The notes beneath the pieces were generated by a model, which made no database searches, had not been told where the DNA came from, and saw nothing but the letters and a program-made list of their open reading frames with translations. A stretch of 64,000 nt of DNA from Bryum argenteum (taxonomy: Eukaryota; Streptophyta; Bryopsida; Bryales; Bryaceae), in assembly GCA_037043015.1 (NCBI GenBank), contig CM073326.1, forward strand, positions 372,001 through 436,000, read 5' to 3'. This document shows positions 11,421 to 36,744 of this stretch, piece by piece; the stretch's first letter is position 1, and every line of letters begins with the position of its first letter. A program made the translations under genes and the position numbers.

Positions 11421-11439
11421 GTGACGATTACGAATTTAC

Positions 11440-12442
11440 GATGTAAACGGTTGTCTGAAGAAGAAGGACTCTAAGCTTATCACATATATTCCTTGGGATA
11501 GAGTAGAGGACTTCGTGAGGGGAGAAGAGTTGGCGAGAAAGGATGTAGAGACGACATTCGTGCGCGACAAGTATGATCCAACAAACGTGGGCGAGAAAAC
11601 TCAGTTTCGGTGGAATCGTCTTCTCGAGCTGCAGCGGTGAGAAGATGTCGTTAGAATGTTTAGTTTAGATTGTGATATTGATTTGTGATGTGTAATTTGT
11701 TCGTGTACTAGTCTCTAACACTTATCGTTCAGTTGGCGTTGTCAATATGGGCCAGAAGACTTGAGTGATAACCATCACGATATCATGCCTGACATGATGC
11801 ATAGATCACGAGGACTCAATTGAAAAGGTAAACAGATTTATTCCGGACGCGGCCAGAAGGGTCCCAGGGCGATAGCTGCGAAGGAGGGGGGGTTGTAAAA
11901 GTTGGATGCCAATGCAAATTCTTCATGAAGAGGTACTACTTCCTACCACTTATCGCGGAGATATCATACTTCTGCGTAGATCATGTTGATAGAGATAGCA
12001 GTACCGTCCACGATAAGACGAATATGTAGAAAGGAAAACTTAGATTCCGTAGGTGCATATCGGACAAAGTACGTGATTGGATCCTTCGACAACACGATGA
12101 GTGTGTTCTACCCGAAGCCATGAAGCAAAGTATGAGAAGTTGGCTCTTAAAAAACGTGACGAAGGCACCGTACCGGAGTCCAGAGATTTGTTCTTGAGCA
12201 TTGAGGACAGACGGAATATATGTAGGGACCGTGCACAGCAATTGTACAAGAAACACGATAACGATGCAGAAAGTGTGCGGATGTGGGTTTGGGAGAATCC
12301 AAATATGGTTTTCTATTGCGAAGATCCCGGAACTAGGGTCGAAGGTGTCCTAATTTCTGAGAACGTGCCTTTCGTTATTGGTATTCAAAATAGATGGATG
12401 GAAAACAACACCACATGTGGAAATCATTCGTCGTCTATATAG
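11440..12442 (+). pseudogene. MULE-like transposase, 5' part only, truncated
   Basis: A first exon-like segment at about 11440-11638 reads TYIPWDRVEDFVRGEEL and ends near a GTGAGA donor. After an apparent intron, a CRYGPEDL-like segment (about 11740) and a longer segment at 12100-12420 follow (CRDRAQQLYKKHDNDAESVR, PFVIGIQNRWM). These match in order the region preceding the DDE core in bryophyte-type MULE transposases. The same PF(V)xxIQxxWM transition occurs in the complete MULE at 16.8-21.1 kb. Several stops and shifts lie between segments. The catalytic core and SWIM finger are absent. It is a dead fragment. Confidence 0.5.
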
Positions 12443-12845
12443 TGGACGACAACACGCTAAAGGGTTAAAAGAAATTTGATTTTAGAAAATCAAATCTAGT
12501 AAATTATTTCCTAGTACACAAATCTCCAAAAATGAAAATAATTTTCAACTATTGATTACAACTTATGAACACTAGTGAGACTAACCTTTGCGTTTAACAG
12601 TACGCACATCAATGCCTCCAAATACAGTATTCAAGTAATGTTCGTTTGATGGGTGCAAAGCAAAATTCCTACTTAGTACCCTAGTAGAGTCTCAATTTTT
12701 GTTTCATCATATTAGGTATTTAGTCATATATGTAACTCTAGGGTTCCAACTCAAGGCTCCAATTCAACTTTGTTCTCTGAAACCAAGTTACGTCCCAATC
12801 TTATTTGAATTTTACGGATAACTTTTATCAATTATAGTTCAAACA

Positions 12846-13190
12846 TAAGCAAAATAATGAACCTCGTAGAAGGCCCCTACGCAAATCCCTTTCAAAGAAT
12901 CTTAATTAAGGTTTTAATTTGTATTTCAAATGGAATATGGAAAAATAATGTTTGACATCCTACTTTCCCTCACCGGAAGCTTTAAGTGCTGGATCACATT
13001 GGCATGTTCAACCTCCATTGGCCGTGAGTTGTGCATGTACAAGTTTACATGCCTTGTGTGGCATTTAGCACTTGTTCAACAAGAAAGTCATACAAGGTAG
13101 TGACACTTCACACACATGTACATCTACTAGGCTTCATGTATTTTAACAATGAATGTCAAATATTAAAGGGCTCATTATTTTGCTAGTGGT
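12846..13190. repeat. Dispersed repeat, copy 1 (second copy at 40.55-40.94 kb)
   Basis: This block and 40553-40935 share long near-identical stretches, for example GCAAAATAATGA, TTTCAAATGGAATATGGAAA and GACATCCTACTTTCCCTCAC, in the same order and orientation. Neither copy is coding. They are two copies of an unidentified dispersed element, with small indels between them. Confidence 0.7.
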
Positions 13191-13199
13191 TTGACATAT

Positions 13200-13776
13200 A
13201 TATCCAATTGTGTGCGTGGTGTACCATTTGGTTTCATTTAACATGGCCCTTTTATGAATAACTTTTTGGGTTCCAATTTATGTGTCCAAGTCAAATTGAA
13301 AATCTCATTTATGGATTCTTTAAAGAAAAATTAGGGAAATTTATAAACGCGCTTTAAAATCTCATTCTTAAATTCATCCATGAGTGTGGTGTGACATTTA
13401 GTTTCACATAACATCCGTAGTCCTTTTCCATGAAACTTTTAGGGTTCTAGACTACGTGTCGAAGCCGGATTACAATTGCAAATCTAACTTATGGGTTCTT
13501 TAAAAATATAGGGGCAATTTGTGTGCACGCTATGATTGAGATCTCATTGATATATTCATCCATGAGCCTGGCGTGGCATCTAGTTTCACATAACAAAGTC
13601 CCTTTACATATAACTTTGAGGGTTCCAAATTACATGTCAAAGTCAATAAGAATTGCGGGTCTAACTTATGGGTTCTTTACAAAATTAGGGGCAATTCATA
13701 TACACAGTTTGGAATTCATTTTATATATGCATCCATGTGTCACGTAGTTCCATATAGTTTTATACAACATAATTCT
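13200..13776. repeat. Degenerate tandem repeat of about 175 bp
   Basis: At least three units follow one another. Each contains a GTTTCA(C/T)(A/T)TAACA start (near 13230, 13400, 13582), then GGGTTC, then CTTATGG(A/G)TTCTTTA, then an AGGG(A/G)CAAT-like word and ATTCATCCATGAG. Spacing is roughly 170 and 181 bp, close to nucleosome length. The units are diverged, so this is an old satellite-like array. Confidence 0.6.
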
Positions 13777-14901
13777 TTAACGGCCCCTCCTCCTCTTTGA
13801 TGCTAAACCATCAGAAGTCTTGGCCGGTGCCAACGCCTTGAGTTGCATGTCCTTCTCTTTGATTTCCTTCTCCTTTTCTTGCAGCACGTCTATAAAGAGC
13901 TGAAATACTTGGCTCATGCTGGCTTGCTGATTTGCATTGAAATCCCATGGCATGGAGACATTATACCTTCCACTAGGATTCCAATCTGCAAGCTCCAAGG
14001 TGGCAACTCCGACAGCATTCGCGACTAGAGGGCCATATGTCTTGCGGAGACTCGTCAGTTCCTCATCGTCGTCATCGACCACGTTCTGCAGATCATTAAC
14101 ACACAGGCACTCAAGATATTAAACATTCGTAGACAGCAAGATATTCAAGGATATGTGAGGTCAGTCTATGACCATATTGTTCAAGATATTGCATACTGAA
14201 TTTAAACAAAGAGAGATAACAGTCCTGAGCTCACAAACCTTTAGAAGCATTTCAACCAGCCAAAATCAACTTCAGACTACATTCGGAAACCATGATGGAG
14301 AAGTTAGCTCGGTGGAGGCTTTTCAAAGACTGAGGATTGTAGCAAACCTGGAATCCCCCTTTGCCGTTAGGCAGCACCTTAATTGGATTGAAGGTCATAT
14401 TTCGCAACAGTTGGTCCACCCGGCTTTGCCAAGCACTGAACTTTTCTTGATTGCCAAGGAACCTGTCTTTACACTCCTCCCACGACCCGTTTGTATTTAT
14501 CTGTCCCAACACTTTAATTCCAATCTCGGCGGTGCCATACCTGTGCAACATCTACTCCACAAAACATCATCAAGGAAATCAATCAGGTATTTGGCATGGA
14601 TTAATCTAAAAAACGGATTAGAACTTGATCTTCCTATGACGTTTGAGCAATCTGTACCAGCAACAACAAACAGTATAATCATTTCATAGCATTTATCTTG
14701 AACTTCCAATAGTAAGTGCACCGTGATACAAAACTCTAGATCGAACTTTGTTATTCCGTTCACCTGAACATGAATGCATCCCAATCTTACGTTGGTTCTA
14801 TAGTTACCAACAACGCACACAAAGGTTTTTTGAGACAGTCTAGATTGCTCCACAACTCCGAAACACTCTCCAATCAAACCGCATTCCCTCACAGACATCA
14901 C
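13777..14901 (-). pseudogene. Exons of a SANT-like hypothetical gene
   Basis: Three minus-strand segments look like exons of one gene. The segment at 14901-14700 reads LSQKTFVCVVGNYRTNVRLG. The segment at 14551-14252 reads EIGIKVLGQINTNGSWEECK and FSAWQSRVDQLLRNM, and follows a TGTGGAGTAG acceptor. The segment at 14082-13777 holds a helical, charged end (QLFIDVLQEKEKEIKEKDMQ) with a basic tail SKRRRGR. The WEECK..F..WQ pattern resembles Myb/SANT-like DNA-binding regions that accompany PIF/Harbinger transposases. That assignment is tentative. Whether the gene works cannot be told, because the exons do not chain cleanly. Confidence 0.35.
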
Positions 14902-16831
14902 AACTGGCCAACCAATATCAATGCCCCTTAAGACGCAGCCACCATTCTATGGTTTGGAGAAGGCTTAGACTTCCAAAGCCGATCGTGTCGATGTTGCTCT
15001 TGTTTGCCTCTGTCGATTCATCCCAAGTATACACCCAGCGAGCTCACTTGGAAAACATGGGTGCAAGAGCCTAAAGGCTTTTTAAACTGCGCCAGCCGTG
15101 TCATTCTCAAGTAGAGGACCGGCTGCTAGATAGGCTCTAAGACATCAAGAGGCAACATACATGATGAAGGACTCCCACCCTCTTGCAACCCTAATCCCTA
15201 AACCCTAAAACTAATGCATGCATCAGTGGTGTCCTTCAAATTGAACTATTCCCAAAAATTAAACCTGCTTCATGACTGATCAATTTTGTTAGAAGTTGGG
15301 AAAAAGGGAATAATCTGGTTACGATTTATACCCGGGTTGGGTCCAACGACCGAGACGTCAAGGGGGTCGGGTGTCACAGGGGCGGGACGCCTCGACGTTA
15401 GGGTTGGTCAGGTAGTCTTAGTGAAGGAGGTTACGACGAGAGTGAGATGAGACAAGGAGTAGGAAGTGAGCAAAGGTCGTCTTAGACTTCATAGAGAGGA
15501 AAAACAGATCTTGGAGGGCCACGGTGTCTTGGAGTCAAGGAGAATATCATTCAGATAATAAGAGAGACAAGGGAGCAGAGGTGTATACAACCAGACAGTA
15601 AACAAGCAAGCAAGAGACCAGACAAGGGAGCAAGGGTTTGGCCAAAATAGGTCTTTCGTTAGTCAAAACGTTGGAGCATGAGAGCTTACAAAAATAGGGG
15701 TCGTCCAAGTTCTAGCTAGGAATGTCTTCCTAACCTAAGACTAAGCTCTTAACAAAATTCCGAGAGACCTGCCTAGTTCTGATCCTATGCCTTTATACTA
15801 AAAGGTCGTCTTTGGAAGTCGCGGCTAACTCCCGATCCTTATCGTTGCTGCCGTCTGCGACTGCAGTGGTGTGGGCGAATGTTCGGAGTAACACTTTTAC
15901 GTTAGGAAGTTTTAATATTTAAAGGATGAGTTGTAAGAGACTCAGTGTCTTGTTTTCTTCTTTATGTTTGTTATGCTTGAAATATATTTTCTTGATGTTT
16001 TATGTGTGATGGGTCCTTGAGCCTGAAACAAGTCCCGTCTGGTGAGTTTACTCTTTTTTGTCTTGTCAAGTTTGTATATGTTTGCTGTAGAATTATGATT
16101 AGGCTAGCAAAGAGAGATCAACGGATACATGGGGCATAATAGGTTCTAGAGCAAAGGACAAGCAACCATGCACAGATGCTTTAAGAGGTGGATGATTTCA
16201 ACTCGCATTCTTAAAGAATAAGTTACACCAATGTACCTTCTTTGTAAGAAGGTGTAACTGTGTCCCCACGAATGCATTGCATTCTTGTTGTTGAGACCTT
16301 TGGGCTTTTTGTTGCACTATTGGAATCATAGTGGTCAAAAAGAGAAGGAGATAGACTCCATCCAGATCCTAACTCCCAAACCCTAAAGCCTTAGAATACC
16401 CATGCAACGCTAAACCTATAGCCCTAAAACCTTGAAATTCCAACTCCAAACCCTTGTAGGCAACTCAACCATCTGGACCTCCCAAAACTGTACACTTGTT
16501 TCAAAAAATAAACATACCACAACAATCGCAAGCACATCAAATGGTGGGGGAGATATGTCACATCAAAACTTCCAAACTCTTGGCAACCTAGTATGTCAAC
16601 CAAAACCACCTACGAGTCAAACCTCCCATATTTCCCAAAAGACACAACTCGAAATGCGAATTTCCATTGCTCCGTTGGAACTTGGAACCGTAAGGGTCAA
16701 GAATTAGGAGGAAGTTTCCATCTCAACACGTGGGGCATACACCGTAACATCCACGAAAACCCTAAACCCTTTAGGTTCGCAGGTGAGGTGGTAGTAGCCG
16801 TTCCTTCATCGCCGTAGCTGCCGAGAGCAAG
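14902..16831. other. Intergenic, LTR-like but unsupported
   Basis: No coding sequence is supported. CCCTAAACCC telomere-type words occur near 15187-15207 and 16376-16430. A segment at about 15330-16330 has an LTR-like look: GGGTGTCACAGGGGCGGGAC, then a TTTATACTAAAAGG box near 15790. No matching partner or target duplication was found, so it is only noted. Confidence 0.3.
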
Positions 16832-17300
16832 GCGGCCTGCCCTCGGCACTATCGGGCGCTGGTGCAGTGCCGCCGCCGCCGAAGAAGAAGAAAGCGATTC
16901 TGCGCGCGGCAGCCTCCTCTCACGCTTCACCGATCAAGGCTCGCGCTGCCCGCCCGCCAAGACACCCGCCACGGCCTGTTCGGCCGCCCGAACTCCTCCT
17001 ACCTGGGTAGAGACCCTGCAGCTCCTTATGTACTCTGTGCGGCAAATTCAGAATTCGGGGAGCTTGGGACTGTGAGCACAAGACCCACAATTTTCAGAAG
17101 GGCTTGTGCCTGCATTCTACACAAGCCCTCCAAACACACATATATGAAACACTCCATTTGTACCTAGTTCCAAATGGTTATAAATTATTGATATTAATTA
17201 TATATTTTATGTACTTTGAGTATAATTTTGAGGTACATACGAAGAGAAAAATTACAACACACTTTAAAACACAATATTTGGAGGAATTGAATCTCCAATT

Positions 17301-20300
17301 TCATTCCAAACTCAAAACATTTTCACAATTCTTGCATGAGACATGTTTATCTCTTTTCCCCACTACCGTGTAAACTAAACATTTGTCACAATGTACTTTA
17401 GGAATTCTAGGAAATACAGTCTTTTTCTGCCTAGAATGAGCTACCACTACATGACTTGAACGTTTTGAAGGCGGTTGTGAAAAACTCTTGTGAATGTTTT
17501 CTTCCTCTACACGTTTCTTCCCGTGTCCCATTCTTGTGCGCTTGACATTCTCTTGAATGGAGGCTATAGATCTGCGTGTTGGAAGTTCAATTGTTGAAGG
17601 TCTCTCAAAGGTTAGTGGCTCTGAAAGAGATGTTAGGAACTTCTGCACAAGTTTTTTTCTATGTATCACCTCTTCTTCACTATAGGTTTAAAGTGAAGAC
17701 TTTAACTCCTGAATTCTAATCTCGGCTTCCACTAACACATCAAACAATCCGCCATGTTAATCTATAACTTCAACAACCTCCGTAATGTTGTCATCAATTG
17801 GAACATCCATTTCTATAGGGGAGAATGGTTCCACATTGTCAACATACTCTATGATTGGCAAACTTGAACATGAAGGAAGAGTGAAATATTCTTTCACAAT
17901 TTCTTGCACTCCTAATATATGCTTACAAGTAGACACAATACTTGGGCACTCACAGAAGTAAGTGTTTAACGAAACACTATACTTTGTGGTGGGTGAACTT
18001 TCACTCACCACATAGAATAACTTGAGCTCCAAGTCCACAACCTCCAAGACTTCACTTGGATTTAATTGGTACGCTTTAAATATGCGTTCCCTTCCTTTCA
18101 AACGTCGTCAATGCTCCTTATCATTGCCTCTCTTAGAATATCTTTGAGAGTCACCTATACATTACATCAAACTTAATTAAAACCAATTGTGAATAGAATA
18201 TAAATTTCAGAATAACAAACACATATAATCAAAACATACAATGTTTCATTTAGAATAACTTACTTATAAGTTGAACCATTTGAAAATGATCAACCAAAGT
18301 GGGCCCTCCAACACGGCTTCCATCTTCCGCGCTTCCAACAATTGCGATGATAAGATCTCTTAAAGATCGATTTACCTTGGCTTGGAGTTAGGTATACTTA
18401 ATCCACTCCCAATGGCGTTCAACGTGGTTCATAGTATCCATACCACCATATGTGAAGAGTCGGCCAAATCGTGGCCACAAATTCCTCCATAAAACTCTTT
18501 GACTTGCCCATCCAGCCCCTAAATACTCTGCAACACTAGGAATATGCTCAAAATCCTCATAGAGCTTTTGAAGATTTCCTTCAAAATGCTCTTCTTTCGC
18601 ACAATGTATCAAAACATGCAAAGCATTCAAAAGTTTGTTTTTCTCGTGTAGGGGAACACGAGTTAAGAGATTCTCACTCCAAGCCTTCGTGACATGGAAA
18701 TGGCATAACAAAACCTTGCCAGCCACTTGTTCATTTTCTCCACCATTGATGCGCCAACAATGTTCGTTACTTCCAACCACGGTGTTTATAGAATTCAAGG
18801 AGGTTTTGTCCTTGTCTATGATGATAGCGGAGGGTCTTATCGCTCCCAAAGATGCAAAAACTGCCGTCAATGCCAACTCCAACGCAATTCCTTGGTGACC
18901 TTGTTTTTTGTCTTTTGTGCACAACATGTAGAAAACGGGAACTCCTTTCCCATCTTGATTTGGCACAACAGCAGCATACAATGGTAAGTCATATTGATTA
19001 GTCTTGAAAGTAGAGTCAAGAGCCCACGAGTTACCATGTGAAAATCTTCTTCCAACATCTCTCATCCAATCATCTTGAATGACTACAACAAACGGTCGCT
19101 TTCTGACATCCTTCTCCTTTGGTGCATAAAGTTGATAAAAAATAACCTTTCCTTGACTTTGTAACCTCAAAATTTCCACTTGAGCAGCATCCCAATCATT
19201 TTTGCGTACAGTATCTACAACATACACACCATCGGTTTAGTCACACATTCAAAAGTTAATTAATGGTACACAATCAAAATACAAAACAATGTATTGAATA
19301 ATTATATTAGAACGAACCATTTATTCTCATAGAATACTTGAGTTGAATCACCTCCTTCGGTATAATGAAGAAACGGTAAGTAACGCGGTCCAAGTCTCCA
19401 ACCATGGCTACTATTTTTTTTGCATCACGTTTGGATGCAAGAGAAACTGTAGATGTTGAAACCATCCTCTTCAAATTTTCTTTCGCCATGGTTATAACGC
19501 TAGGGTGCACATGTAGGAATAAAATGTCACTTTGGGAACCTGGTACATGGCCACTATGTTATGTACGCACGGAAATAGTACACTCTCTTCCTTTAGATGC
19601 TCCAATAGGCTCTACAGTTTTCAATTGAAAGGTACAATCCCGTAACCTAATTTTCCTCTCTTGTCTACTACCCCTAGTTTCAGTAGGTCTTACAGCGGGT
19701 GCCTTCACATGAGGCCTATTTTTGTTTCCACTCCTATGACAATGGTAGTACTTAACAATGTGATATTGGTATCGAAAAGTTCCACGCAACCTACGTAAAA
19801 CGACATGTTTCACGCATATTTTGTCAAGGGTGATATCTAGAAGGTCATAGGGAACATTGTGAACCTCATCCCATGACTTAGAATCCTTGCAAGTGGAGCA
19901 AGATTCCATACAACTCTCTACAAACTTAGTGTTGATCCCTCCTACTCTAAAATCCGTGCTCCAATGTGCATGAATTACTTCAAAAGTAGAAACCATGCTC
20001 AAATGTTTGCCATCAACATCAACATGAGATTTCTCTATAATTGAGCACCAATATTCGATAGGAGGAATTTGTCTTCCTTTGAGATCTTGTTTCAAGGGAG
20101 ACAAACCAATATTGTCATTCACACTAATCAATTTCACACTATTCTGAAGTTTCCTCCATCGATTAATAGTGTGAGGCACATCATTTACATCTATAGGACG
20201 GCCATGACTCTTGGGAAGAGGACAAAAACTAGGATCTACACCACAAATTTCTTCAAATGTGGGTGACAATCTTTTTCTTAAACACTCAATCATGAGGTTC

Positions 20301-20653
20301 ATACTTCCAAGAGTGAATCGAAGATACTTAGGGAAAGTCTCGATAGGGACATGTTCAAAAGAAGGAAGAGAAGGCTTATCTAATGCAAAGTCCATGTTGT
20401 CACTTGATGAAAGTGGAAGCTCCCCGCGAACACCCTCCATTTCCTTGTGCACTTCATCATCACCTTCATATTCGGATTCATAATCCGAAATGTTGAAGTA
20501 GGTTTCACCAATTGTTGAAGTGAATTCTAACTCACTATTACTTGCATAAGAACCTCCAAGAATCTCCTCCACACCTACAACATACTCTAATTCTTCTTCA
20601 AAATCCGAAGGATAGAAGTAATCATCCTCTTGCAAAGAAGTACCTTCCTTCAT
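17301..20653 (-). pseudogene. MULE transposase with FAR1-like, DDE and SWIM regions, five in-frame stops
   Basis: Segments run 20653-19318, 19214-18264 and 18154-17301, with phase-consistent GT-AG introns. The N-terminal part is acidic (about residues 1-90). A zinc-type segment reads YYHCHRSG and ends HSGHVPG. The DDE core follows (QDDWMRDVG, LDSTFKTNQYDLPLYA, IIIDKDKT). A SWIM finger CECPSIVSTCKH follows, and a Cys-rich tail (CDKCLVYT, CKNCE) ends the protein. Stops in the same frame lie at 19559, 18388, 18108, 17757 and 17688. All five can be explained by CAA or CGA changed to TAA or TGA. The transposase would cut and paste MULE DNA, and this copy cannot make a full protein. Start ATG is at 20653. 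Confidence 0.8.
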
Positions 20654-20906
20654 GAATCCTAAATCTTACATACACTAAACTTGATTGAAGAAGACTAATG
20701 TGAGAATTTGGAGTACAAACCCTAACAAAATTAAAGAAGTTGTAAAACAAACAAAAAAAAGAGTTGAAGGTACTTCGATGAGAGTGTGAGGGGTGTGAGA
20801 AGGAGGGGGGGGAGAGGAGGGGGGGGGGTGAGAAAGAAGGGGGGGTGTGAGAGACAAGCAAAATGTGAGAGGGAGGAGGAGTGAGAGAGTCGTACGGAGC
20901 TTGAGA
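20654..20906. other. G-rich leader of the MULE transposase
   Basis: This stretch lies between the transposase start and the right TIR. It contains G-run and GTGAGAG repeats (C-run on the coding strand). It would be the 5' leader of the transposase transcript. Confidence 0.4.
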
Positions 20907-21150
20907 CTTGTGCTCACAGTCCCAAGCTCCCCGAATTCTGAATTTGCCGCACAGAGTACATAAGGAGCTGCAGGGTCTCTACCCGGGTAGGAGGAGCTCG
21001 GGCGGGCGTGCGGGCGGGGCCGGGCGGGCACAGTCGGGGCTGGGCAGCGAGGGGGAGGCTGCCGCCCCGGCAACTGCCGGCTGCCGCTGGGCCGGCGCCG
21101 CCGCCAGACCCAGGCGCCGATAGTGCCGAGGGCGGCCTGCGTCGCGATGG

Positions 21151-21886
21151 GTGAGTGATTCGTGCTACTGGGCACATGTTTGTGCCGTGCTGCCAACCTG
21201 TGTTTGTGAGGTTGAATCCGTGGTTTTGTCGATGGTTTCGAAGTTGGAGTTCGACGTTTTGGGTTTGACAGGGGATTTGTGTTTTGTGTTGGGAGGTTCG
21301 CGTGTGCAGGTGCGTACAAGTTTCGGGCGGAGATGCTTGTATCGATGGCGGCCTCGTAGCGAACATTTCGACAGGAAGGACGTTCGGATTCGGCAGTGGT
21401 TTTGGACAGCGCCGTGTAGGGAGCGCGGGAAGAAAGTGTGCTTCTGTGACAATCATTTTCGAAATCTCTCGGTCGGAAAGAGAAATTTACGGGGGCATCG
21501 GCGAAGAGGACGCGGAGGTAGTCACGGAGGGCACCATATGAGCGTGAATGCTGGAATCGAGGTTGCAGCGTCCTGGCTGTTATGAGGGTTTCATCTTCTG
21601 TACTCTTTAGAGTGATTATGCTTGTGATCGATGAACGGTTTTGTACCACCAGGAAAGTGATGTAGCCGTTTCGGATAGGATCAGTTGTGGATGTGTGAAG
21701 CGGTGACAGAGGGTTCTTACATCAAGTTGATTGACATGGTCAGGGGGCAGGGCAGCCATATGCAAGCAAGCCTATGTTCTCCACTTATTGGATGGGCTTG
21801 TGTAATGGTCGAGGGGGTCAGGTAGAGAAGGTCCTGTGATTTTGTTCCGGGGCCATCGGTTTGACGCTTGTTTTGTTTTGGTGCAG
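21151..21886 (+). other. Probable 5'-leader intron of the Crinkler-like gene
   Basis: A strong donor (GATGG|GTGAGT) lies at 21150/21151. A polypyrimidine-like acceptor (TTTTGTTTTGGTGCAG) ends at 21886. The MULE target duplication ends at 21140, ten bases before the donor. The transposon therefore sits in or just before the presumed first leader exon. The open frames in this stretch are short and lack domains. Confidence 0.4.
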
Positions 21887-21972
21887 GTTTATGAACCGAA
21901 CCCGTTGATCGTGGACTGAAGTTGGAACCGCAGGAAAGTTGAATTCTGCAGAACGCCGTTGGTTGGAGCAAG

Positions 21973-24575
21973 ATGGTGGATACTCCGCCCTCTCGGCCCT
22001 CTCCTCCACCACGGAAGGATGATATGGCTTGGAAAGGCCTTGCATTCGCGTATGTTCTCCAGCATTTTCCAACCGCCGCACCGGCGGATTACGGTGCCTG
22101 GTTTCGTCAAAGCTATGATACTCTGGAGCAGTATTTGAGAAAGTGCTGCGAAGCGCAGTCTGAAGCAAACGTGTCGGCCTTGAAGTTTATGTTGGATCCC
22201 GAACCTTCTTTGCGTGGATCCGATGCCCCCCAGCTTTGCTCCAGAGAAAGAGCAGATTTGGTGAAGGCTTTCTCTGATCCGTATAAAGATGAGCGGTCCT
22301 GCGTACAGACGTTCACCGAGTTTGTTGACAAGTGTGCAGTTGGATGGGATCGCGCGATTTACATTGCCCCCTATACGTCTCTTGTGCAAAGCTCAGGTAC
22401 CGGGAAAAGCCGACTGTTGAAAGAATTCGCCAACAAGCGGTATGTGATATACTGCTGTGTTAGATCTAAAGAGAGTTCCGGCATTCCTGCGCGTTCCTGG
22501 ATAGCGGACAAGCTTCTACCGGCTCCTGGTGTAGTCGTAGACGAGGAGAAGGACAGACGAAAATGTAGCTTTCTCTATGCTTCATTCATTTGTGCCTGCA
22601 TTGATCATCTAGCCGAATCTGTGAAAACCGGCATTACTCGACAACAATGGTGTGAGAAGCAACTGGAGGAGGGGGACAATGTCAGTGGAGGTGATTTTTG
22701 GGAGAAAATCCACGATCGAATGGGAAATTTCGGAGTGCACGAGTTTAAGAATTTCGAATCTGAAAAACAAGACTCTCAGTTCTTGCAGACCACGATACGA
22801 CTGAGTTGTGAAAACTTAGTGGCAAGTTGCAGGGCCTCTAAGGTATTCAATGCAGATCAGGTTTTGCTTACCTTTGCTTTGGATGAAGCACGGTGTCTGC
22901 TTTACGAATATGGTGGCACCTCATACTTCAGCATATTTCGGTGGATGGCAAGTTATCTTAAGGAAGGCTGTGGCATCTTTATAGTACTGGTCGACACTGT
23001 TTCGAAAATCAGCAACTTTCAACCGGCGACGATTAAAGATATATCGTACAGGTATTCAAAAGTAGGAGGCACACAACTGCTTCCACCGTTTTACACGGTC
23101 AACACCTTCAATATCCTCGCTCCTGGGGAGAGAAAGTGGAATGACATACAGGATTCTACTTCGGACTTGGCATCTTTGTTGACCTCACATTTCATGAGAG
23201 GGCGGCCTTTGTTTGGAAGCTACATTCGATCTCGCCTGGGCTCCGAAGTGGTGAATGATGTGGTGCGTTCTCGCCTGGGCTCCGAAGTGGTGAAAGATGT
23301 GGTGCGTTTGGCTGTGTCGAAGTTGCTTGGGGCGTCCCACCAAATGATTTTAAGGACTTAAAGGTGGACTATAACATAGGGGTTGCATTGCTATCTGTTC
23401 GTGCCGCTGTTTTTGTTAAACCCCAGTCGGAGTTGGCATCGTCCTTGGTGGCCAGTCATCTTGGCATGTGCCTTGCAATTTCCTCTGACAGGCGCTCGGT
23501 GTTCACTGGGTATCCGTCGGAACCAGTGCTTGCTGAAGCTGCGTGTCACATCATGAATCGACGCCAGGATTCGGGTTTGGGTGAATTCTTAGAACCCCTG
23601 TTACTTTACATACGGGAGGGAATCGTCGAAGGGGGTGTACGAGGGGAGTTGGCGGCGCGACTTCTTTTCCTCTTAGCTTGGGATCATGCCTGCATGAAGG
23701 ATGCCCTTGCATACACACCACGTTTAGACATCTGCGGGGGCCATCGAGTACTCTACACCAGACCTCTAACGGTACGCCAGTTTCTACATTCTTTGGCCGA
23801 TGAACAACGATTGCATGCCGCTCTCAAAGGGCAAATTGCTGATCGAGAAATGCAGAGGTTTCTAGATGGGAAGGTATTCTTTACCCACTTTACTGCAGTC
23901 ACCTACCGTGTCGAACGGCCTGATTTGATAGAATTCTTCGAAAGTAGTGCTGCCGTCATGTGCAAGCGAGGTGAACAGAGCATTGACTTGATAATTCCAG
24001 TGAGGTTAAGACCAGGGGTTATGTCTTACATTTTGGTACAAGTCCGGAACTACAGGGACGCAGATCCAAAATATAAGTGGGCCAGCGTGGATGTTACGCC
24101 CGAAAGTGCTGGTTTAGAAAAGAGGCAGGTGGACTATCCATACCTTGCCCTCTATTTGTCCCTAGGCTACAGAGATCCGAGGGTCTACAATCTCAAATAT
24201 GAGAAGCACCATGTTGCTGATCTCAGTGCAGTTCCACTTGCAAAGAGATATCCTGAGGAGCCAACTGAGGAGCCAATCCAGGAGCTCGCTCAGGAGCCAA
24301 AGAGGACGAAGAAACGTAAAAGGAGCTTAAATGAGAGCTCCGAGGACCCTTTTCAAATGATTATTGGTCTTTTCTCACTCCAGCCAGCGATTTATCCTTG
24401 TCTTCGTGGAGATCAGTCGACGAGTTCCACGCATTTGTCAAGTTTATCTCGTGCTTGGACTGATATACTTGACTATGTTCAGAACAACAAGACTGGTGGG
24501 TTGGGTGAAGACCAGACAATGAGAGATGCCAAATCTTCCTTTGTGAAGGAGACCTGTACACTCAACTACAAATAA
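21973..24575 (+). pseudogene. Crinkler-like P-loop NTPase fused to a PD-(D/E)XK-type nuclease, one frameshift
   Basis: The first frame (21973-23361, 462 codons) has a Walker A motif QSSGTGKSR around residue 140 and a Walker B-like LLTFALDEAR around residue 300. The second frame (23364-24575) holds a restriction-endonuclease-like core: FFTHF, then QSIDLIIPV, then ILVQVRNY. A Lys/Arg tail (KRTKKRKRS) and a short C-terminus follow. This two-domain layout is that of Crinkler-type proteins described from oomycetes, fungi and other eukaryotes. Some of these act as secreted nuclear effectors, others may be transposon-derived. The frames are joined by a one-base shift near a GGGG run at about 23329. 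A 39-bp in-frame tandem duplication lies at 23229-23306. No signal peptide is seen. It could be a sequencing error in a live gene or a young pseudogene. Confidence 0.75.
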
Positions 24576-25070
24576 ATGACTAGGAGGTAGAAGCACATGT
24601 CAAGCTTATGTCGAGCTTGGATTGAATGGGTAGTCAGGAATCTAGGATTGCATTGTTTCCGCCATTGGCTTTAGGATCAGGACTGAGGTTCACATACCTA
24701 CAAACCAAATTTGTATCCAATTTTGTGATGTGATTAGAGTTGCAAACCAATTTGTGATGATGTAGAGATCAATTTTGTTAGAAGTACAGATAGGTAGGGT
24801 AATTTGTTCAGGTTAAATTCCTAGAACTTCTTTTCCACTGAATTGGCTTCTTGGTCTTTTGTCTAGACTTTAGGGGTACTCATTGCTTATCCTCCCCTTT
24901 AGGGGTACTCATTGCTTATCCTCCCCAATTTTCACAGAAGCTCAATTTACTTAAGTCAAAAAAATCAAGTTAAGTGTTGCACATAACTTCTTCACAATGT
25001 TCCATGATTGGAGTTTGAATCCTACAAGGTGTGAATAAGAGTAAACATGAATAAGAGGAAATATGCTTGT
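24576..25070. other. Intergenic with a 29-bp tandem duplication
   Basis: No gene is seen. A perfect 29-bp direct repeat containing GGGGTACTCATTGCTTATCC lies at 24869-24897 and 24898-24926. The rest is AT-rich and includes the probable 3' end of the Crinkler-like transcript. Confidence 0.6.
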
Positions 25071-25079
25071 TCTACAAGA

Positions 25080-26040
25080 CAAGCATTGTACTTTTATCCA
25101 ATATTTTGTATGTGATAAGTGAGCCAAGGGGAAGTTGTTTTTCGGGATTGCCTCGTTTTTCTAATACGAACCCGTCTAAATCATGCCATGGATATTGTCT
25201 TACCACGCATGTGCATCTGGACGGATGTTGAGGTTGGTAGTAGCATGTTAGAACAGAGGGTCGGTTGTTACTCGATTGTTGAGTGTATATTTCATTTGCA
25301 GTATCTTGAGGATTCGTAAGTAAGTTGTTGTGGCTATCTAAAATGCAATCAAGTGGTGGTGTTTCTTGGTTTTTGAAGACTTTTGTTAATTTTTTTGGGG
25401 CTTTTTTCATATAATTGTCTATATTTTGTGATGGCCTTTTTTACGCAAGTTTGGGAGTATTTTGTGGTAATTTTTCGTGCTTCTTTGTTTGCAGTTTTGG
25501 CTAGTTTTGCAAGGGTTTTTGTCCATTCTTGTGGGTCGATTTCTTGCGTGGAGGGTGGGGGATATTTATGTAGCAGTGCTTTTTTAGTTCGTCTATTATT
25601 GGGTGGTCTAGCCAATTCGGTGTGTTTTTGGTAATATATATCGCTTTTCTGATCAAATGATAGGTGGATAGTTGTTTTTTCCATTGTTTTGTAGTTTTCT
25701 AGGTAGATATCCGTCTTGTTTGTTTGTGCGCTGTGTTAGAGTGGGTATTGGGGGGGGCGCTGCAAGTTATTTCATTTTTTTGAGATATTTGTTGTATTAG
25801 TTGGTCTAGTTTTGTGCATGTTGTTTGCCATTGGTTGTTGGTTATTTGTTTGTTTGTAAGAAGTGTTGTGAGTTCGTTTATTTGGTGTGAGTTTTCTTCA
25901 AAACATATTCTTTTGAAGTTTTCTAAATTATCTTGTGAAATCGGGTTTAGAATCCTTGTGGGTTTATTTGTTGTTGATTTTATGGGTCTTGCTAGTAATA
26001 TGTTCGTTCTTTATGGTAGGTATCTCGATTGGCAATGTAC
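25080..26040 (-). mobile_element. LINE-like (non-LTR retrotransposon) remnant
   Basis: Translating the minus strand gives a Lys/Asn/Gln/Thr-rich chain with LINE-like spacing: WTKTLAKLAKTANKEARK, then LYEKSPKKINKSL, then FKNQETPPLDCILDSHNNLL with NPQDTANEIY. This resembles the linker between endonuclease and reverse transcriptase in plant LINEs. There is a frameshift near 25349-25410. Neither the reverse transcriptase core nor a poly(A) tail was found, so this is a short fragment. Confidence 0.45.
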
Positions 26041-26044
26041 AGAT

Positions 26045-26413
26045 ACCTTCCGAGCAATGTAAGTACTAGAATTCCTTCACAACAAACACAACAATGAAGT
26101 CGCCCAACCTCTTCTCAAAGAAAGGAGCTCACTCGGCGAGACCGTAATGTTCAATTGGTTTTCCGGATTGGGTAAGAGATGAAGCGGACCGAGAGAAGTG
26201 AATCAAAGATCATAGGGTAGAATGTATCATTAGGGATCTCCGGCCATGGATGTCACTCATGCGTACATATGAGTCGCCTTGTATGCACCGCATGTGAACA
26301 TTTGAGGTTTGGCCATGACCAGGTCCCTCATGCTACATGTGTCCCTCGAATGATATTCGACTTTGTTTTTAGAGAAAACAAAAATCATTCTCAATTCCAA
26401 ACAGATGAAGCTA
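26045..26413. other. Intergenic, nothing recognised
   Basis: No frame, repeat or element end could be supported here. Confidence 0.4.
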
Positions 26414-27244
26414 TTAGATAATAGATATATTCCTTGGCTCACGTGATCCTGAATGAATGAGTTTTACTACCGATCGGTACCAATTTACGCATGGAAAGTG
26501 ACAACGCAGAAAACTACTCACTCTTGAAGCCAACAATGTGGCCCTGGCATCTTCGATTTCGTCCTTGGCCACCGGTGGGGAGATCGTGAGTCGGGACACA
26601 AGGTCACGACCGTCTACATCCTCCTCAAAGTCTCTCAGCTGGTCCTCCAGCTCACAAATCCGCTTTAACAACCCATTCTCCTCGTTGAAATCCTCCTCAC
26701 TCTGAAGGTCCATTGTCTTAGCCGGTTCCACTAGTACCTTCCTAGTACCAACCTTGGCTGTCGCCACTTCCTTCGCACCAACTTTAGCCTCCCTCTTGCT
26801 CCCCACAATCTGAATCTGTTGCTTCAGCTACTTCCCCTTGTATTTTTTTGTATGATTGCTCTCCGGTTGCCCATCTAGTCCCACACAGTAACAATCTAGC
26901 CTCCCTGACGATACAAGGCCCTTGAAGCAATCCTCGCAGATTTTATGAGAGAAATGCGAGTAGGTTTTCAAATTCGCTAACAGGGGGCATGGATCTTCAG
27001 GTTTACCATAAAAAATGTCGGCAAAATACTCGTATGCCATCGCCTTCGAACGTGATGGAAACACATAAAACCCGAGAAACCTCCTTTTCTCATGCCACGG
27101 ATGCGCTTTCAGATTCTCAACCTGCGCCAAACACCCGATTGCTTTGTTCACATCGTCATATGTTATCTCAATTGCATGGTGTTGATGTAAATATTTCACT
27201 TGCACCACTCTCTGCCGGTTCACTGGTCCCGGCCTACTCATCCC
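26414..27244 (-). pseudogene. Hypothetical protein gene with one in-frame stop
   Basis: A single reading frame runs from the ATG at 27244 to 26414 and is cut once by TAG at 26828-26830. The first part (about 138 residues) has a compact region with KRRFLGFYVFPSRSK and several cysteines (HKICEDCFKG, LDCYCVG). The second part is charged and coiled-coil-like (ENGLLKRICELEDQLRDFEE). The TAG is followed by CTG and preceded by AAG and could come from CAG. I do not recognise the family. A donor-like AAGA|GTGAGT near 26522 suggests that the exon ends there in the intact gene. Confidence 0.4.
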
Positions 27245-27269
27245 TGCTCGATCACAAACAACACTCACA

Positions 27270-28074
27270 ATCCCTAGCGTGAGGATGATGCCTGGGGGCA
27301 GTGCGCTAGCTCCAGCGATGGCGATGGTGGTTGAGGAATTGGTGCAGCTGTGTTAGGGAAGAAATTAGGGTTCCAACTGCAATTGTCGTATTAACTGAGA
27401 CTCAACCCAGATGGATGTTGGAAATGGCGATGCTCCGAACAACACTAGCATTCCAAGGCGCCCGAAATCTTTCCCGGAGCTTTGAGGCGAATCCAACAAG
27501 GTAAATCAACGTATCTCAAGGTGGAGGAAGAAGAAGAAGAAGATTGACACTTTTCAAGCTGAGTGATAGTCACAATGCAACATACAATGGTTAGCAAAAG
27601 CGTTCGGACAGTAATGACAATCTTAGTTTATTAGTAACACTTGTCAAGTTTGGAAAGTGCTGATTTTTTCAGCTAATTACAACTAAAGAGACATTTGTAA
27701 ACCAAAAATAGTACCATCATTAATATTGCTGTTGTGAGAAAAGGAGAGAGACAACAAAAATAAGATATTAATGAAAAAGATGTCTTAGAAGTGTCTCATG
27801 ACCACATATTTATATGGAAGGATTGTAACCTTTTACGTTACCTAAAAAAACCTGAAGTAAACTCTATGGATGGACAGAGACGACCTTTCATCTTGTCTCA
27901 ACACTCCTCCCCGAACGATGAACTTCCTCGTTAAAAAACTTCAAGGAGATTGAAGAAAAAGAGTGAAGTCATCGTTCGCTTTCGAATTCAACTCATGTCT
28001 ACAAGTAAACTTTATGGTGGACAGAGACGGACTTTCATTCTGTCTAAGCAGAGCCACTTGCAAGGGCGGTCGTT
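27270..28074. other. Intergenic, with a 142-bp-spaced direct repeat
   Basis: No gene is seen. Two related blocks (GTAAACT(C/T)TATGG..GGACAGAGACG) occur near 27862 and 28004. Between them lies AACACTCCTCCCCGAACG followed by AAACTTCAAGGAGATTG, which resembles the polypurine-tract or promoter neighbourhood of some LTR elements. The element itself is not identified. Confidence 0.35.
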
Positions 28075-28642: not shown

Positions 28643-29424
28643 TGTTACCGACGTCGTCAGGGGTAACCGGAGACCAAGCAGAACCACAAAGCAGCCCATC
28701 GGACCACCGCGGCACACTCAACGGAGGAGATAGCGGCCGAACTAGGAGATCAAGGCAACCGAGGCGTAAGACCGATCTTGACCACGCTAGCCGAGGATAA
28801 GGGCACCGCCGATTCATAGGAGTGCCGTAGTATTTAAAGTAGTAGAAAATAGGGAGAGGACTCTCTGTAGTCACCGTAGAAGCGAACCCTTGGTGGAAAC
28901 ATCACCCTCCATTGTATTACATTTGTTATCGATGAATACAAAGGCCACCGAGCCTACACTCTCTCCCATTTCTGTGTCTCCCTCTCACTCGGCATTTCAC
29001 TTGTGCGGCTAACAATGACCGCAGGGGACGCCATGAATGCCTAACGCCGTCCTCCTTCCCCAAACTTCTACACTCACCACCGAGGACACCGAGACCCCGC
29101 GGTAGTCGTAAGTTCAGTTAGGTCTCCCGTGCTCGACATCCGAGCCTCGCAGCCATACCCACCACCTGTGCTCCATGTCCACTCGTACTTCACCGGTCCC
29201 GCTCGAACCGAGAGGTTCCCACGGTAACCGGTTCACCTTCTCGACCTCCAAGGCGACTAACAGTCTTTGCCGTTGACTTAGAAAGACTTCCTCACTCCTA
29301 GAAAGTCACCTCTGTGGCCATTCGCTTACCAAGTTTGCCCGGCCACCCATCTATTCACGTTCTTCTATCAACAGACTCTCGATGAGCTCGTAAAGCATTC
29401 CATCCTCGGTAACCCAGGATAACA
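28643..29424 (+). repeat. 5' LTR of the Tat-type element
   Basis: Begins TGTTACCGACGTCG. It contains a promoter-like TATTTAAAGTAG region near 28830 and the AATACAAAGGCC polyadenylation neighbourhood near 28935. It ends GGATAACA. Compared with the 3' LTR it differs mainly by one-base gaps at C-rich or CpG positions. Confidence 0.88.
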
Positions 29425-29496
29425 TTTTGGCGACCATGCTGGGGATGGAATGTTGAGTCATCCCGAAAAACAATCAAATCATAAAATGGAAGAAAC

Positions 29497-30432
29497 ATGC
29501 CTCCACGAAAAGCAACAGAGAAGAATGCGAGAACTCAAGAGGTCGCACCCCAAGATGACCAGGATACCATGAGAGAATTGCTCCAATGGATGAAACAGCA
29601 AATGACCGATTTGGCAGCAAAAAATGATGCTACCAATGCCAAGATCGAATTGCTAAATTCTCACTATCTCCAGGGAATAGGTACGTCTACAACTATCCCA
29701 AATCCACCTCTAGTCACCATGGCAGGACCATCAGAACTCCCGTCCAACGATCCTATGATGGCTGCGTCAATGACATCCAAAGAACGAGACAGACTCATCA
29801 AGTTACCAAAAATACCTTACCCAGTTTTTGATGACTCCGGTGACCCAGATTGGCACGTGCGCAGGTTTAAAGTAATAGCACGAACTAACGGCGTTACCAG
29901 CACGGAAGATTTACAGAATATCTTCGGAACCACGCTCCAAGGCAACCACATCAACTGGTATATTGACTTTGAGGCCGAGCACTTGTTACCAACGTGGGAA
30001 GAAATGGAACGTAGTTTTCTGCAGAAATTCAGAAAACTAAAAACAAGCTCCGAAATTCTCCGAGCGTTAGGAAACATTCAGCAGGAGAGAAATGAACCCG
30101 TTGACAAATTCTACGATAGATTCAAACAATTGGCAGACAAACTCAGTCAACGACCCGAGGAAGACTACCTGTGCGAATGGTTCAAGAAAGGATTATTACC
30201 GTGGATACAGCAAGGCATTATCATCCGCGGAGTGAAAACACTACAAGACATACTAGCTGCGGCCAATGATATCAGCAGAGAGCTCACCGCTATTGATAAA
30301 TCTCAAACACCATTGTTACCACTTCCAACAACCCGAGTAACCACCCGCTCAACACTCACCCCATGCGTTACGTGTGGAAAACTTCACGCAGGGGCGCTGT
30401 TGGTTCTCCAATACGACACCGAAATCCGATGA
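29497..30432 (+). CDS. Gag capsid of the Tat-type element
   Basis: This 311-codon frame starts at ATG 29497, 70 bases after the primer-binding site. The N-terminus is polar and coiled. The capsid core follows (PDWHVRRFKVIA, TLQGNHINWYIDFE, RSFLQKFRKL, EPVDKFYDRFKQLADKLSQ), as in Ty3/Gypsy retrotransposon gag (Retrotrans_gag family). Gag would package element RNA. The zinc knuckle is not in this frame but in the next one. A frameshift at about 30380-30430 therefore separates capsid from nucleocapsid, which may be programmed or a mutation. Confidence 0.75.
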   Translation: MPPRKATEKNARTQEVAPQDDQDTMRELLQWMKQQMTDLAAKNDATNAKIELLNSHYLQGIGTSTTIPNPPLVTMAGPSELPSNDPMMAASMTSKERDRLIKLPKIPYPVFDDSGDPDWHVRRFKVIARTNGVTSTEDLQNIFGTTLQGNHINWYIDFEAEHLLPTWEEMERSFLQKFRKLKTSSEILRALGNIQQERNEPVDKFYDRFKQLADKLSQRPEEDYLCEWFKKGLLPWIQQGIIIRGVKTLQDILAAANDISRELTAIDKSQTPLLPLPTTRVTTRSTLTPCVTCGKLHAGALLVLQYDTEIR

Positions 30433-33400
30433 TGCCAGGACTACACGGACCAAAGCCGCTGCCATGTATCCAGAGGAAATCGATGTGGATGCTCTCCAAC
30501 CTGGCCGAAATGACGGTTGTTGGGAATGTGGATCTCCCCATCACCGACGGGGCCAATGCCCAGTTTTAAAACAACGCTGGGCCAACACTCGCACTGCCTC
30601 AGACACCAAGGCACACCACAGCAACACAGATCCGAGCTCCAGCAATAGGAGAGGAGGAGTCACTCTGACCGAAGTCCACGGTACCAACATCGCCACCATA
30701 AGCACTGCGGCAGTAACAACCAGGTCAAAGGCTACCGTAGACAACCATGTCGTCGAACACCGCAAACCATTTGCGGAACAGCACTGGAAGAGACTACACA
30801 ATCTACGAACAGAAATACAAGCCGACTTGGAATCCGCGGTAGTCCCAGACCTACAGCAGATATTAGAAAAGACTGACGTAAAAATCACGTTAGCAGATCT
30901 GCTCAAAATTAGTCCCGAACTTCAAACATATATACAGAACATTCACAAAACCGCGACCACGACCACGGCAACCGTGGAAATCAATGCAACCACCATCGAC
31001 ACCGAGGCAGCAGTCATACACATCCAATTGGGACAGCATCAATTAAGAAATGTGCTGGTCGACGGGGGTTCCGGGGTTAATGTAATCAGCGATCACCTCA
31101 GACAACAGTTGGGATTACCACGACCAACAACAGCGCAGTTTGTCCTACGAATGGCCAATGATGCCCCGGTGACACCATTAGGAATCCTAGCCACCGTGGC
31201 TATCACAACTCATGGCATTTCAACACCGGCGACCTTTGTTGTCATCGATATGCCAAATAGCAGCAATTTCCCTATGATATTGGGGCGACCATGGTTACGT
31301 GACATGAACGCGGTTCATGACTGGGCCAGAAATCAAATCAGGATCCGAAGATATGGGAAAACTATGATCATCCCCGTAGACAGTTGCATTACCAGAGAAA
31401 AAATCAAACAAATACGGCACCAGGCTGGTACGGCATGGGGTAAAGGACTGACGCATGAACAAGAGGCCCTGGTGTTCCATGCCGACCCTGATCTCATTCC
31501 GCTAGCCGAGATTCACTTGGCCAGCGTGGTTTCCCAGGAAGATACACTTGATATTCCCTCCAGGTTTACCACCGAAGTTGCCGAAGGCGTCGTCATTGAC
31601 AACACTCCTGCATCCAAAGCACTAAGTCAGCAAGTGATAACTGGCTGGACACATGGGTCCAAAGAACAAGTACAGCTTGTCAACCTTGGTACCGAACAGG
31701 AGCCAAAAAATGTCAAAATAAACGCAGATGCTCCTAATGACATCAAACGAGCTGCCATAGCACTGTTCAAAGAATACCATGATATCTTCGCGTGGACACA
31801 TGAAGACCTGAAGGGGATACCAAGGACGATAGCGGAACACACAATAGATTTGGTACCAAACGCTCATCCAGTCCAACAGCGCAGATACCGAATGAATCCT
31901 AACTATGCTATTAAGGTCAAGGCAGAATTGGATAAACTGCTTAATGCCAAGTTTATTTCCCCGGTAGACTCGGCACCATGGTTGTCTCCAATGGTAATCA
32001 TTCCTAAGAAAAACGGCGCTTTACGAATCTGTGTTGACTTTCGCAAACTCAACGCAGCGACTAAAAAAGACCACTACCCTCTACCTTACATGGAAGAAAT
32101 CATCGATGAAGTGGCAGGACACGAAATGTACTCATTCCTAGACTGTTTTTCAGGGTATTATCAAGTAGCAATGGCAGAGCAAGATAAAAACAAAACCGCG
32201 TTTTCCACGGAGTGGGGGCCATATCAATTCGAAAGAATGCCGTTCGGAGCCAAGAATGCGCCTATGACATTCCAACGTGTCATGGAATTAATTTTTCGTC
32301 CTTATCTAAAGAAATTTTTCCGGATTTACCTAGACGACGGCACCGTTTACGGACAAATGCAAGACCATGTTGACCAGCTGAGACAGATATTTCAGGCCTG
32401 CAGGGAAAACGGGTGAGCCTCAATGCCGACAAAATGTATGTTCCTATTTTTTGCAGGAGTCATCTTGGGATATATCGTCTGCAAGTATGGCAAACTCCCG
32501 GATCCATCTAAAATACAGACATCCTAGATATGACCCCACCCGAGAGACCAAAAAGGCGTCCAAAGACTACTTGGCATATCACAGTTCAATCGAATGTACA
32601 TAGCAAAATTAGCCTATCTAACGGCACCAATAGTCGCTTTAAATCATCCAGGCTATTCCTATCCACGAGATTGGACTCCGGCAAAGACACAAACCTTAGA
32701 CAAAATTAAGCAGCGTACTCGAGGCACCAATCCTTCTAGCACCCAACCCAGGCCAAGCCATTCCACGTACACACACGACGCCTCCAAAATCGCCGTGGGC
32801 GTGATGTTAGCACAAAACATCAATGGTAAACACGACCAACCGGTGGCGTACGCTAGCAGGTTACTAAACCAAGCAGAGCGCAATTATTCCACCACGGAAA
32901 GAGAAGCGCTAGCCATGGTGTATGCAGTAAAGAAATTCCGACATTACCTGTTAGGAAATAAATTCCGGTTCATGGTAGACCACCACAGTTTATCCTATCT
33001 GGTAAATCAGCCGTTAATCACCGGAAGAGTGGCACGATGGATCATGATTCTCATGGAATATGACTTCGAGGTAGTTTTTGTACCTGGAAAACGCCACATT
33101 GTAGCAGATTATCTCTCCAGGGACACCAACGCTACCGAAGAAGGCATAGATGACTCCTTTAACGAGCCTTATATCCAAGCTGCCTCACTGCAACTCCATG
33201 TCAGCGGCATCACAGAGGTTCAAAAAGATTGGAGATATGACATCATGGAATACTTAAAACAGGGAAGTATTCCGGAGGGGTTGACTGGCTCCCAAAAAAT
33301 CAGCTTCGTGAGAACCACATTTCCATACACGCTGATAGACAACCATTTATATCGAAAAGGCACCGATTTAGAGATACGACTCTGTGTGCCCAACAGGGAT

Positions 33401-34200
33401 CAGCATCAAATCATTACCACACTCCATGCTGGCCCCGCAGGCGGACATCAAGGACCGGAGACCACGGTCCAAAAGATATTAGCAGCCAAGTATTGGTGGC
33501 CCACGGTACACAAAGATGTCAACACCTATGTCAAAAATTGTCACGCGTGCCAGACCGCAGCTACCAATTTCCAGCATCAGGGACGAGTGCCACTAAAATC
33601 AATCCCACCACTGGGACCGTTCCAAAGATGGGGACTCGACTTTGTGGGTCCAATCAAACCGGCAACAAAACAGGGATACAAATACATCTTGGTTGCCACA
33701 GATTATACAACCAAATGGGTAGAGGCGAAACCATTACGCAACAATACTGCCATGGTCACCGCTACTTTCCTCTACGAGAACGTAATCACTCGTTTCGGGT
33801 GCCCTTTGGAAATAGTTTCGGATCAAGGCACGCATTTCGTCAATGCAGTCATCGAAGACCTTATGGACAACCATCTCATCAAACACAGAACCAGTACAGT
33901 CTATTATCCCCAAGGAAATGGACAAGCAGAATCTACCAACAAAACTATCCTGACAATGTTGCGCAAATTCGTGATCGCCAACCAAGTCGACTGGGATGAC
34001 TGTTTGCTCATGACTTTGTGGGCCTACGGTAGTAGCTACAAAAGCGGCCACCCATTTTAGCCCATTCGAACTCGTATACGGGACACGACCATTGTTACCG
34101 ACGAGTATATTGTGCCAACCTTTAAATCCATGCGACCACGTGATTACCAACCTCACCGTATCCTCGCACCCGCATGGACGATTTACACAGCTTGAAGAAT
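30374..34200 (+). pseudogene. Pol polyprotein of the Tat-type element with frameshifts
   Basis: Order: zinc knuckle CWECGSPHHRRGQC near 30526; aspartic protease LVDGGSGVNVIS near 31055; reverse transcriptase from about 31840 with APWLSPMVIIPKKNG, then FERMPFGAKNAP and the catalytic YLDD near 32325. RNase H follows with [10 protein letters not shown] near 32770 and [20 protein letters not shown]. Integrase follows with its HHCC region (GGHQG, CHACQ) and DDE residues in [15 protein letters not shown] and GQAESTN. The frame shifts at about 32417-32590 (between reverse transcriptase and RNase H) and near 34030. Gag and pol lie on the same strand between the LTRs. Without these shifts it would be a full-length enzyme set, so it is dead or needs resequencing. 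Confidence 0.8.
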
Positions 34201-34209
34201 TCCGGGAGA

Positions 34210-34930
34210 AGCTAAACTAAATATCCTACGAAGACAAGCATTAAGTGCAAAATATTTCCAAGGCACTAAACCTCCTCGGGTATTTCAAAAGGTGATCAAG
34301 TACTATGGTGCCCAAGAGACCCAAAAATCGGGAAAGCCAAATTCGGGACAATTTGGCATGGACCCTACAGTGCGATTAGTGTTACCCAATAACACAAGAC
34401 TTTTGGTAAATAATGACAACTACGACGCCTGTGCCACCATAGTTAACGCGGCAAAATTAAAGAAATATCATTCCAATACTACGAATCACCACCAACCATA
34501 AGTCCGGGACAATTACAAAATTTACTTGTCCTCGGAAGCACAGAACAAACACCAACACAAGACCTCAAAAGCGTCGCAGGGCCACCGAAAACATGGATAT
34601 CACGGATGGCAAGGATAGCGGGAGGCAAATACCCCAATATTACATGTGAGTCACATACAAGTGGCCTACATAAACGACCAAGACCATCGATGCCGTCATG
34701 CACGATTAGACACCGCAGACCTTCAAATGGAAAATAAGGCGGACCCCATCGTCACCTACACAGTCATCATGGATATCAAAGGAGCCACTACAACCGCCAA
34801 AAACGGCTCTTAACCGATGGCCACCGACAAAGACTTACTCCCACTCCGCCGACATTAACTCCCACCACCGCGGAAGCCACAGATCGCTCAAAATCGGCAC
34901 CCGCGCCCTCACTCTCTCTCTCTTTTTTAC
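34210..34930. other. Decayed integrase C-terminus and spacer
   Basis: Fragments of the integrase tail (KYFQGTKPPRVFQKGDQV, LWCPRDP) are visible in changing frames up to about 34320. Beyond that no frame is convincing. A pyrimidine-rich TCTCTCTCTC tract near 34911-34925 precedes the extra ORF region. Confidence 0.45.
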
Positions 34931-34979
34931 ACTACCGCGTGCGCCTCGCTGCTCACTCTCGCTCACGCGCCGCCATCCC

Positions 34980-36740: not shown

Positions 36741-36744
36741 CCGA

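Follow-up and report, generated by a model that had tools for sequence, protein, structure and literature searches.

The interrupted gene and its surroundings

The window, that is, the whole stretch of 64,000 nucleotides of Bryum argenteum DNA analysed here (C6:372001-436000; the genome searched amounts to 258.8 Mb in 25 contigs), carries on its plus strand two open frames that are one gene split by a frame change, with a MULE transposon at the 5' end and an LTR retrotransposon further downstream. The features of this region are the following, in window positions:

11436..27849, no strand: duplicated block common to the C3 copy of the gene, the MULE excepted
16832..16840, no strand: left 9-bp target-site duplication of the MULE
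16841..21131, minus strand: MULE transposon (transposase domain, E 1.8e-14)
21132..21140, no strand: right 9-bp target-site duplication of the MULE
21151..21886, plus strand: presumed 5'-UTR intron, GTGAGT ... GTGCAG
21973..23361, plus strand: first frame of the interrupted gene, with the N-terminal region and the NTPase-like part, 462 aa; matches of 97-100% identity on C3, C2, C7 and C6
22387..22410, plus strand: Walker A-like QSSGTGKS, first residue atypical, in 5/5 copies
22861..22890, plus strand: Walker B-like VLLTFALDEA, LTFALDEARCLL in 5/5 copies
23230..23308, plus strand: 39-bp in-frame tandem duplication (13 residues twice)
23364..24575, plus strand: second frame, the remainder with the REase-like core and a basic cluster, 403 aa counted from the first GTG; matches of 95-100% identity
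23979..24002, plus strand: REase-like strand SIDLIIPV, in 5/5 copies
24027..24053, plus strand: REase-like YILVQVRNY, with R at the position usually held by K, in 5/5 copies
24300..24323, plus strand: basic cluster KRTKKRKR, a possible nuclear localisation signal, in 5/5 copies
28643..38050, plus strand: LTR retrotransposon inserted in the block, probably Gypsy-type (reverse transcriptase domain, E 1.6e-24)

Two long frames without introns had been predicted, and both were found (21973-23361 and 23364-24575), the coding frame having no internal intron. The second open frame starts before its first GTG and overlaps the first one. Measured from stop to stop, the overlapping frames extend over 472 and 438 codons, whereas the longest stop-free run in any of the three frames of simulated sequences (2000 first-order Markov sequences of equal length, modelled on the coding region of the C2 copy) had a median of 105 and a maximum of 276 codons, so that the window frames are not due to chance. 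A real gene is confirmed by copies at other places in the genome that run without interruption over 867 and 879 codons. The 39-bp tandem duplication is not itself the break, since the uninterrupted C2 copy has it too.

The MULE shows a transposase domain, terminal inverted repeats and a 9-bp target duplication, and ends 20 bases before the presumed intron donor at 21151. It is missing from the four other copies of the gene; the empty site was seen in C2, C3 and the second C6 copy, and the C7 alignment also joins at the MULE site. The window copy, its frame broken and a MULE lodged at its 5' end, is a pseudogene. The LTR retrotransposon, in turn, is not found at that place in C2 or C7.

Several other features were observed in the window. 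An NLI-interacting-factor-like phosphatase domain is encoded on the minus strand at 57000-57818 (Pfam NIF, E 9e-15), and a plus-strand fragment at 50541-51218, followed by repeated sequence, resembles a plant CDK kinase core (RDLKPQNLLVD...KIADLGLGRA). A proline/alanine-rich ORF of 797 aa without Pfam match lies on the minus strand at 1409-3802, where the opposite strand is also open over 467 codons. The ORF at 4710-5732 contains long internal repeats and, judged by eye, is probably repeat DNA and not a gene. No match was found when the window was searched with Rfam at gathering scores and with ARAGORN.

Motifs and family assignment of the protein

The original prediction described a Crinkler-type (CR) NTPase/nuclease, with a Walker A motif (GTGKS), a Walker B-like motif (ALDEAR) and a nuclease core (SIDLIIPV and ILVQVRNY). 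All of these were located in the frames named and in every one of the five copies, but the labels given to Walker A and the nuclease core stood only as regards the presence of the motifs, not their residues. The textbook Walker A is GxxxxGK[ST], from which the motif found here departs by a Q as first residue. Similarly, the active site of PD-(D/E)XK nucleases is usually (E/Q)xK, and the putative core reads QVR, i.e., Q-x-R. The basic cluster falls within the final third of that second piece.

Searches of both pieces against the Pfam, NCBIfam, PHROGs and PADLOC profiles gave no match at E values up to 10, a range in which the HMMER filters discard most matches above about 0.1. The profile search of both frames had been set as the test of the original prediction, and zero matches to NTPase or REase families is formally the outcome named as refuting it; the profile libraries used may lack this protein branch. 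Of two sequence searches of the PDB, one returned no match and the other three chance-level matches (best E 0.26). Relatives were found neither in viral contigs nor in plasmid records with both pieces as queries, nor in prokaryote genome contigs or phage records with the first piece. AlphaFold single-sequence models were too poor to use (mean pLDDT 36 and 35); in that of the second piece, low-confidence strands fall at the REase-like place, and the helices bearing on a possible HTH between NTPase and REase are unreliable at a mean pLDDT of 35. The Crinkler header PF20147 (Ubl/LxLFLAK) was not detected in a Pfam scan of the gene, and a PF20147 search of the genome gave no match, its control being equally without matches. 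Likewise, no match to the retrotransposon hot spot protein family (RHSP, PF07999) appeared in the protein scan, and the genome search with PF07999 returned zero matches, with an equally empty control.

CR proteins combine an NTPase, an HTH and a REase, a layout credited to Zhang et al. 2016 in PMC5289972, and they target nucleic acids and occur in land plants, according to that source. It also reports CR proteins whose headers are of other, unrelated kinds, so that the missing Ubl/LxLFLAK header does not exclude membership (PMC5289972). Like CR proteins, the gene places an NTPase-like and then a REase-like part in one large frame, its product is likely nuclear, and CR proteins are also known from non-pathogenic land plants (PMC5289972). 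It differs from them in the absence of a PF20147 match and of a profile match to either domain, in its Q-x-R motif, and in having only five near-identical copies here.

Two further groups offer comparisons. Eudicot CR proteins carry Myb-type headers and are proposed to target invasive DNA inside the cell (PMC5289972); the present gene resembles them in having a plant host and an apparently non-secreted product, but no Myb or other header was recognised in it by Pfam. The trypanosome RHSP are relatives of CR proteins, and retroelements also lie near the gene described here, which differs from them in lacking a PF07999 match in the protein scan. RHS genes have a subtelomeric setting, as does the present gene.

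The gene probably encodes an NTP-binding protein joined to a part that resembles a restriction enzyme. Its assignment to the Crinkler type is plausible from the order and kind of its motifs, from its layout, and from a presumed likeness to fungal CR proteins whose Walker A is of the 'QSSGTGKS' type; this part of the original prediction found no counterpart in the profile searches. That the protein belongs to a family unrelated to CR, whose P-loop-like and beta-strand motifs arose by coincidence, is in our estimation unlikely: the zero profile matches, the atypical Walker A and the Q-x-R motif would fit such a family, but four motifs follow one another as expected and a basic cluster comes close to the end, and the presumed agreement with fungal CR proteins also speaks against coincidence.

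Five near-identical copies and how they spread

Five near-identical copies of the gene, with protein identities of 95-100%, were found in the genome on four large contigs, all of them less than 400 kb from a contig end:

C6, 394-397 kb: window copy, interrupted
C6, 187.6-190.2 kb: second C6 copy, with interruptions that differ from those in the window copy
C3, 120-123 kb: same interruption as the window copy
C2, about 60 kb from the far contig end: uninterrupted from ATG to stop, 867 codons
C7, about 96 kb from the far contig end: uninterrupted from ATG to stop, 879 codons

No telomere array was found in the first 10 kb of C6 or of C3, and 'subtelomeric' here means no more than that a copy lies close to the end of a large contig. 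The genome yielded no diverged paralogue, even when searched with the REase-like core alone at E values up to 10, a query that returned at least five matches, one per known copy.

The view that the gene belongs to the genome of a plant host was borne out by the five copies on four large contigs and by many type III polyketide synthase matches. The model of this enzyme matched at 56 places in the genome, exons being counted apart, and for one intact gene the closest PDB entries were three chalcone synthase sequences (824-826 bits, including 6dx7), followed by 2p0u (625 bits). Of these entries, 6dx7 is an enzyme of the moss Physcomitrium patens and 2p0u comes from Marchantia; the matches suggest that the genome is that of a moss. 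Contamination was rejected on account of the spread of five copies across four large contigs.

A more recent arrival in the lineage was also weighed. Horizontal gain from a fungus, an oomycete or another microbe, followed by amplification near chromosome ends, would account for the absence of diverged paralogues and for the intronless coding frame, but it agrees poorly with the presumed plant-style 5'-UTR intron, and CR genes have already been reported from land plants (PMC5289972); we regard such a recent gain as improbable.

The frameshift in the window had been suspected of being an assembly error. The existence of near-identical copies elsewhere, with C3 sharing the interruption of the window copy, makes both contamination and an assembly slip private to this locus unlikely. 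Systematic sequencing errors are possible given the short length differences among the aligned copies, including eight one-base gaps that only the window copy has in its flanks, and could mean that its frame is truly intact. Nevertheless, the same interruption is found in C3, whose flanks differ, C2 and C7 read through and, frame aside, the window copy carries the MULE at its 5' end, so that a sequencing error is quite an unlikely source of the interruption.

All copies sit in shared blocks of about 12-18 kb. The C3 match covers window positions 11436-16840 and 21132-27849, and C2 matches the window in separate stretches, reaching about 43.3 kb. The flank at 15541-16800 recurs at the same five places as the gene, and that at 26000-27500 at these places and in one weak fragment on C4. 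No isolated copy outside the shared blocks was found in the genome, and no inverted or terminal repeat common to the copies was found to bracket the gene. The shared blocks and the lack of a common bracketing repeat point to segmental duplication as the means of recent spread, and not to a gene that transposed.

Inverted pairs bracketing the gene at less than 9 kb from the coding region were seen in C7 (one) and in C2 (three). Three of these four pairs measure 14-17 bp and are at chance level (E 3.2). The fourth, present as a pair in C2 only, is a perfect 25-bp repeat whose arms are 14.8 kb apart, one some 4.8 kb upstream of the ATG and the other some 7.4 kb downstream of the stop; no target duplication was seen beside it. 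A single arm occurs in C7 and in the window, and none in the 30 kb read around the C3 copy and the second C6 copy. This 25-bp pair is perhaps composed of parts of a short repeat. A separate scan, which spanned 4.4 kb at the C2 copy and took in 0.26 kb of its 3' side, gave three weak inverted pairs of 19-25 nt.

The suggestion that the gene might form part of an unrecognised mobile element thus received no support for recent time: the genome search for terminal repeats around paralogues revealed none common to the five copies, and neither target duplications nor scattered copies were found for the gene. A self-transposing element was rejected on the basis of the long shared flanks and the lack of a bracketing repeat common to the copies. 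Although prokaryotic NTPase-REase pairs have been linked with transposable elements and helitron-rich regions harbour some of the CRN genes of oomycetes (PMC5289972), transposons are present in the neighbourhood of the gene and the 25-bp pair does bracket the C2 copy, the long flanking blocks common to the five copies, none of them isolated, together with a pair complete in C2 only and remaining pairs at chance level, largely refute for recent time the reading of the gene as cargo or transposase-like gene of such an element and of the copies as its insertions, which is very improbable.

The two uninterrupted copies, C2 and C7, differ at 12 of 2601 bases in the coding region and at 51 of 2498 bases in the 3' flank. 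Coding divergence was observed to be about four times below that of the 3' flank, third codon positions included. By codon position (1/2/3), the differences number 2, 6 and 4 of 867 sites each, and of the codon changes 3 are synonymous (591 sites) and 8 nonsynonymous (2010 sites), close to neutral. Purifying selection was dropped as the cause of the low coding divergence in view of these codon-position counts and of the 3:8 changes, which indicate that the low coding rate does not reflect selection at the protein level. The C2 and C7 copies show no sign of purifying selection since duplication, and the 3:8 ratio suggests that even these uninterrupted copies may be drifting. A likelier cause is gene conversion, or else faster mutation of the transposon-rich flank; among the 37 transitions in the flank, 18 fall in a CpG or CHG context, a count made without a control. 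The flank class '+2500..3900' was left out of account, as C3 and the second C6 copy, in which the shared block stops near window position 27849, are misaligned there.

Proposed role and significance

The strongest Kyte-Doolittle means over 19 residues are internal and low (1.25 and 1.35). The lack of a hydrophobic N-terminus, along with the basic cluster near the C-terminus, makes an intracellular, nuclear role likelier than secretion, as judged from the sequence. This sets the protein apart from secreted CRN effectors, since no N-terminal secretion signal was detected by hydropathy, the only criterion applied.

In the mechanism that we propose, the intact copies would encode an intracellular protein made up of an N-terminal region, a Crinkler-RHS P-loop NTPase, a linker, a REase-like domain and the basic cluster, which would probably target it to the nucleus. 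Binding or hydrolysis of NTP would switch the action of the REase-like domain on nucleic acid, as has been proposed for CR proteins (PMC5289972). The protein would do its work in the nucleus of the plant itself, selfish or invading DNA being one example of a target, and not as a secreted effector. The gene would have multiplied by segmental duplication of subtelomeric type without transposition of its own, and the copy in the window would have decayed through the frame change and the 5' MULE insertion. As a whole, a decayed copy of a gene for an intracellular CR-type protein, spread by segmental duplication, is the best explanation of the locus and one that we hold to be reasonably likely.

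The Q-x-R form suggests that the REase-like domain may not be an active nuclease, binding nucleic acid rather than cutting it. A bolder reading, distinctly doubtful at present, would see in the gene a plant-resident CR-type protein whose REase-like domain lacks the usual active site in every copy and which, retained for NTP-driven DNA binding or sensing in the nucleus, was amplified near chromosome ends; it would be a domesticated relative, with altered catalysis, of a family known above all for pathogen effectors. Returning to the preferred explanation, a decayed copy of an intracellular CR-type gene, the locus in the window most likely represents a decayed member of a gene type that is already known, and is mostly an ordinary new example, since such genes have already been reported from land plants. 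No moss CR gene was described among the literature matches listed, which consist of titles and the beginnings of abstracts and leave subscription journals mostly outside their scope, and absence of such genes from the literature is not asserted.

Being a pseudogene, the window copy is of little importance by itself, and it is the uninterrupted C2 and C7 copies that merit study. If the CR assignment holds, they would provide a bryophyte case in which a family famous for its effectors is present as an ordinary intracellular gene, in one genome that keeps uninterrupted and broken near-identical copies together, and thereby a simple setting in which to test the action of plant CR proteins on the plant's own selfish DNA.
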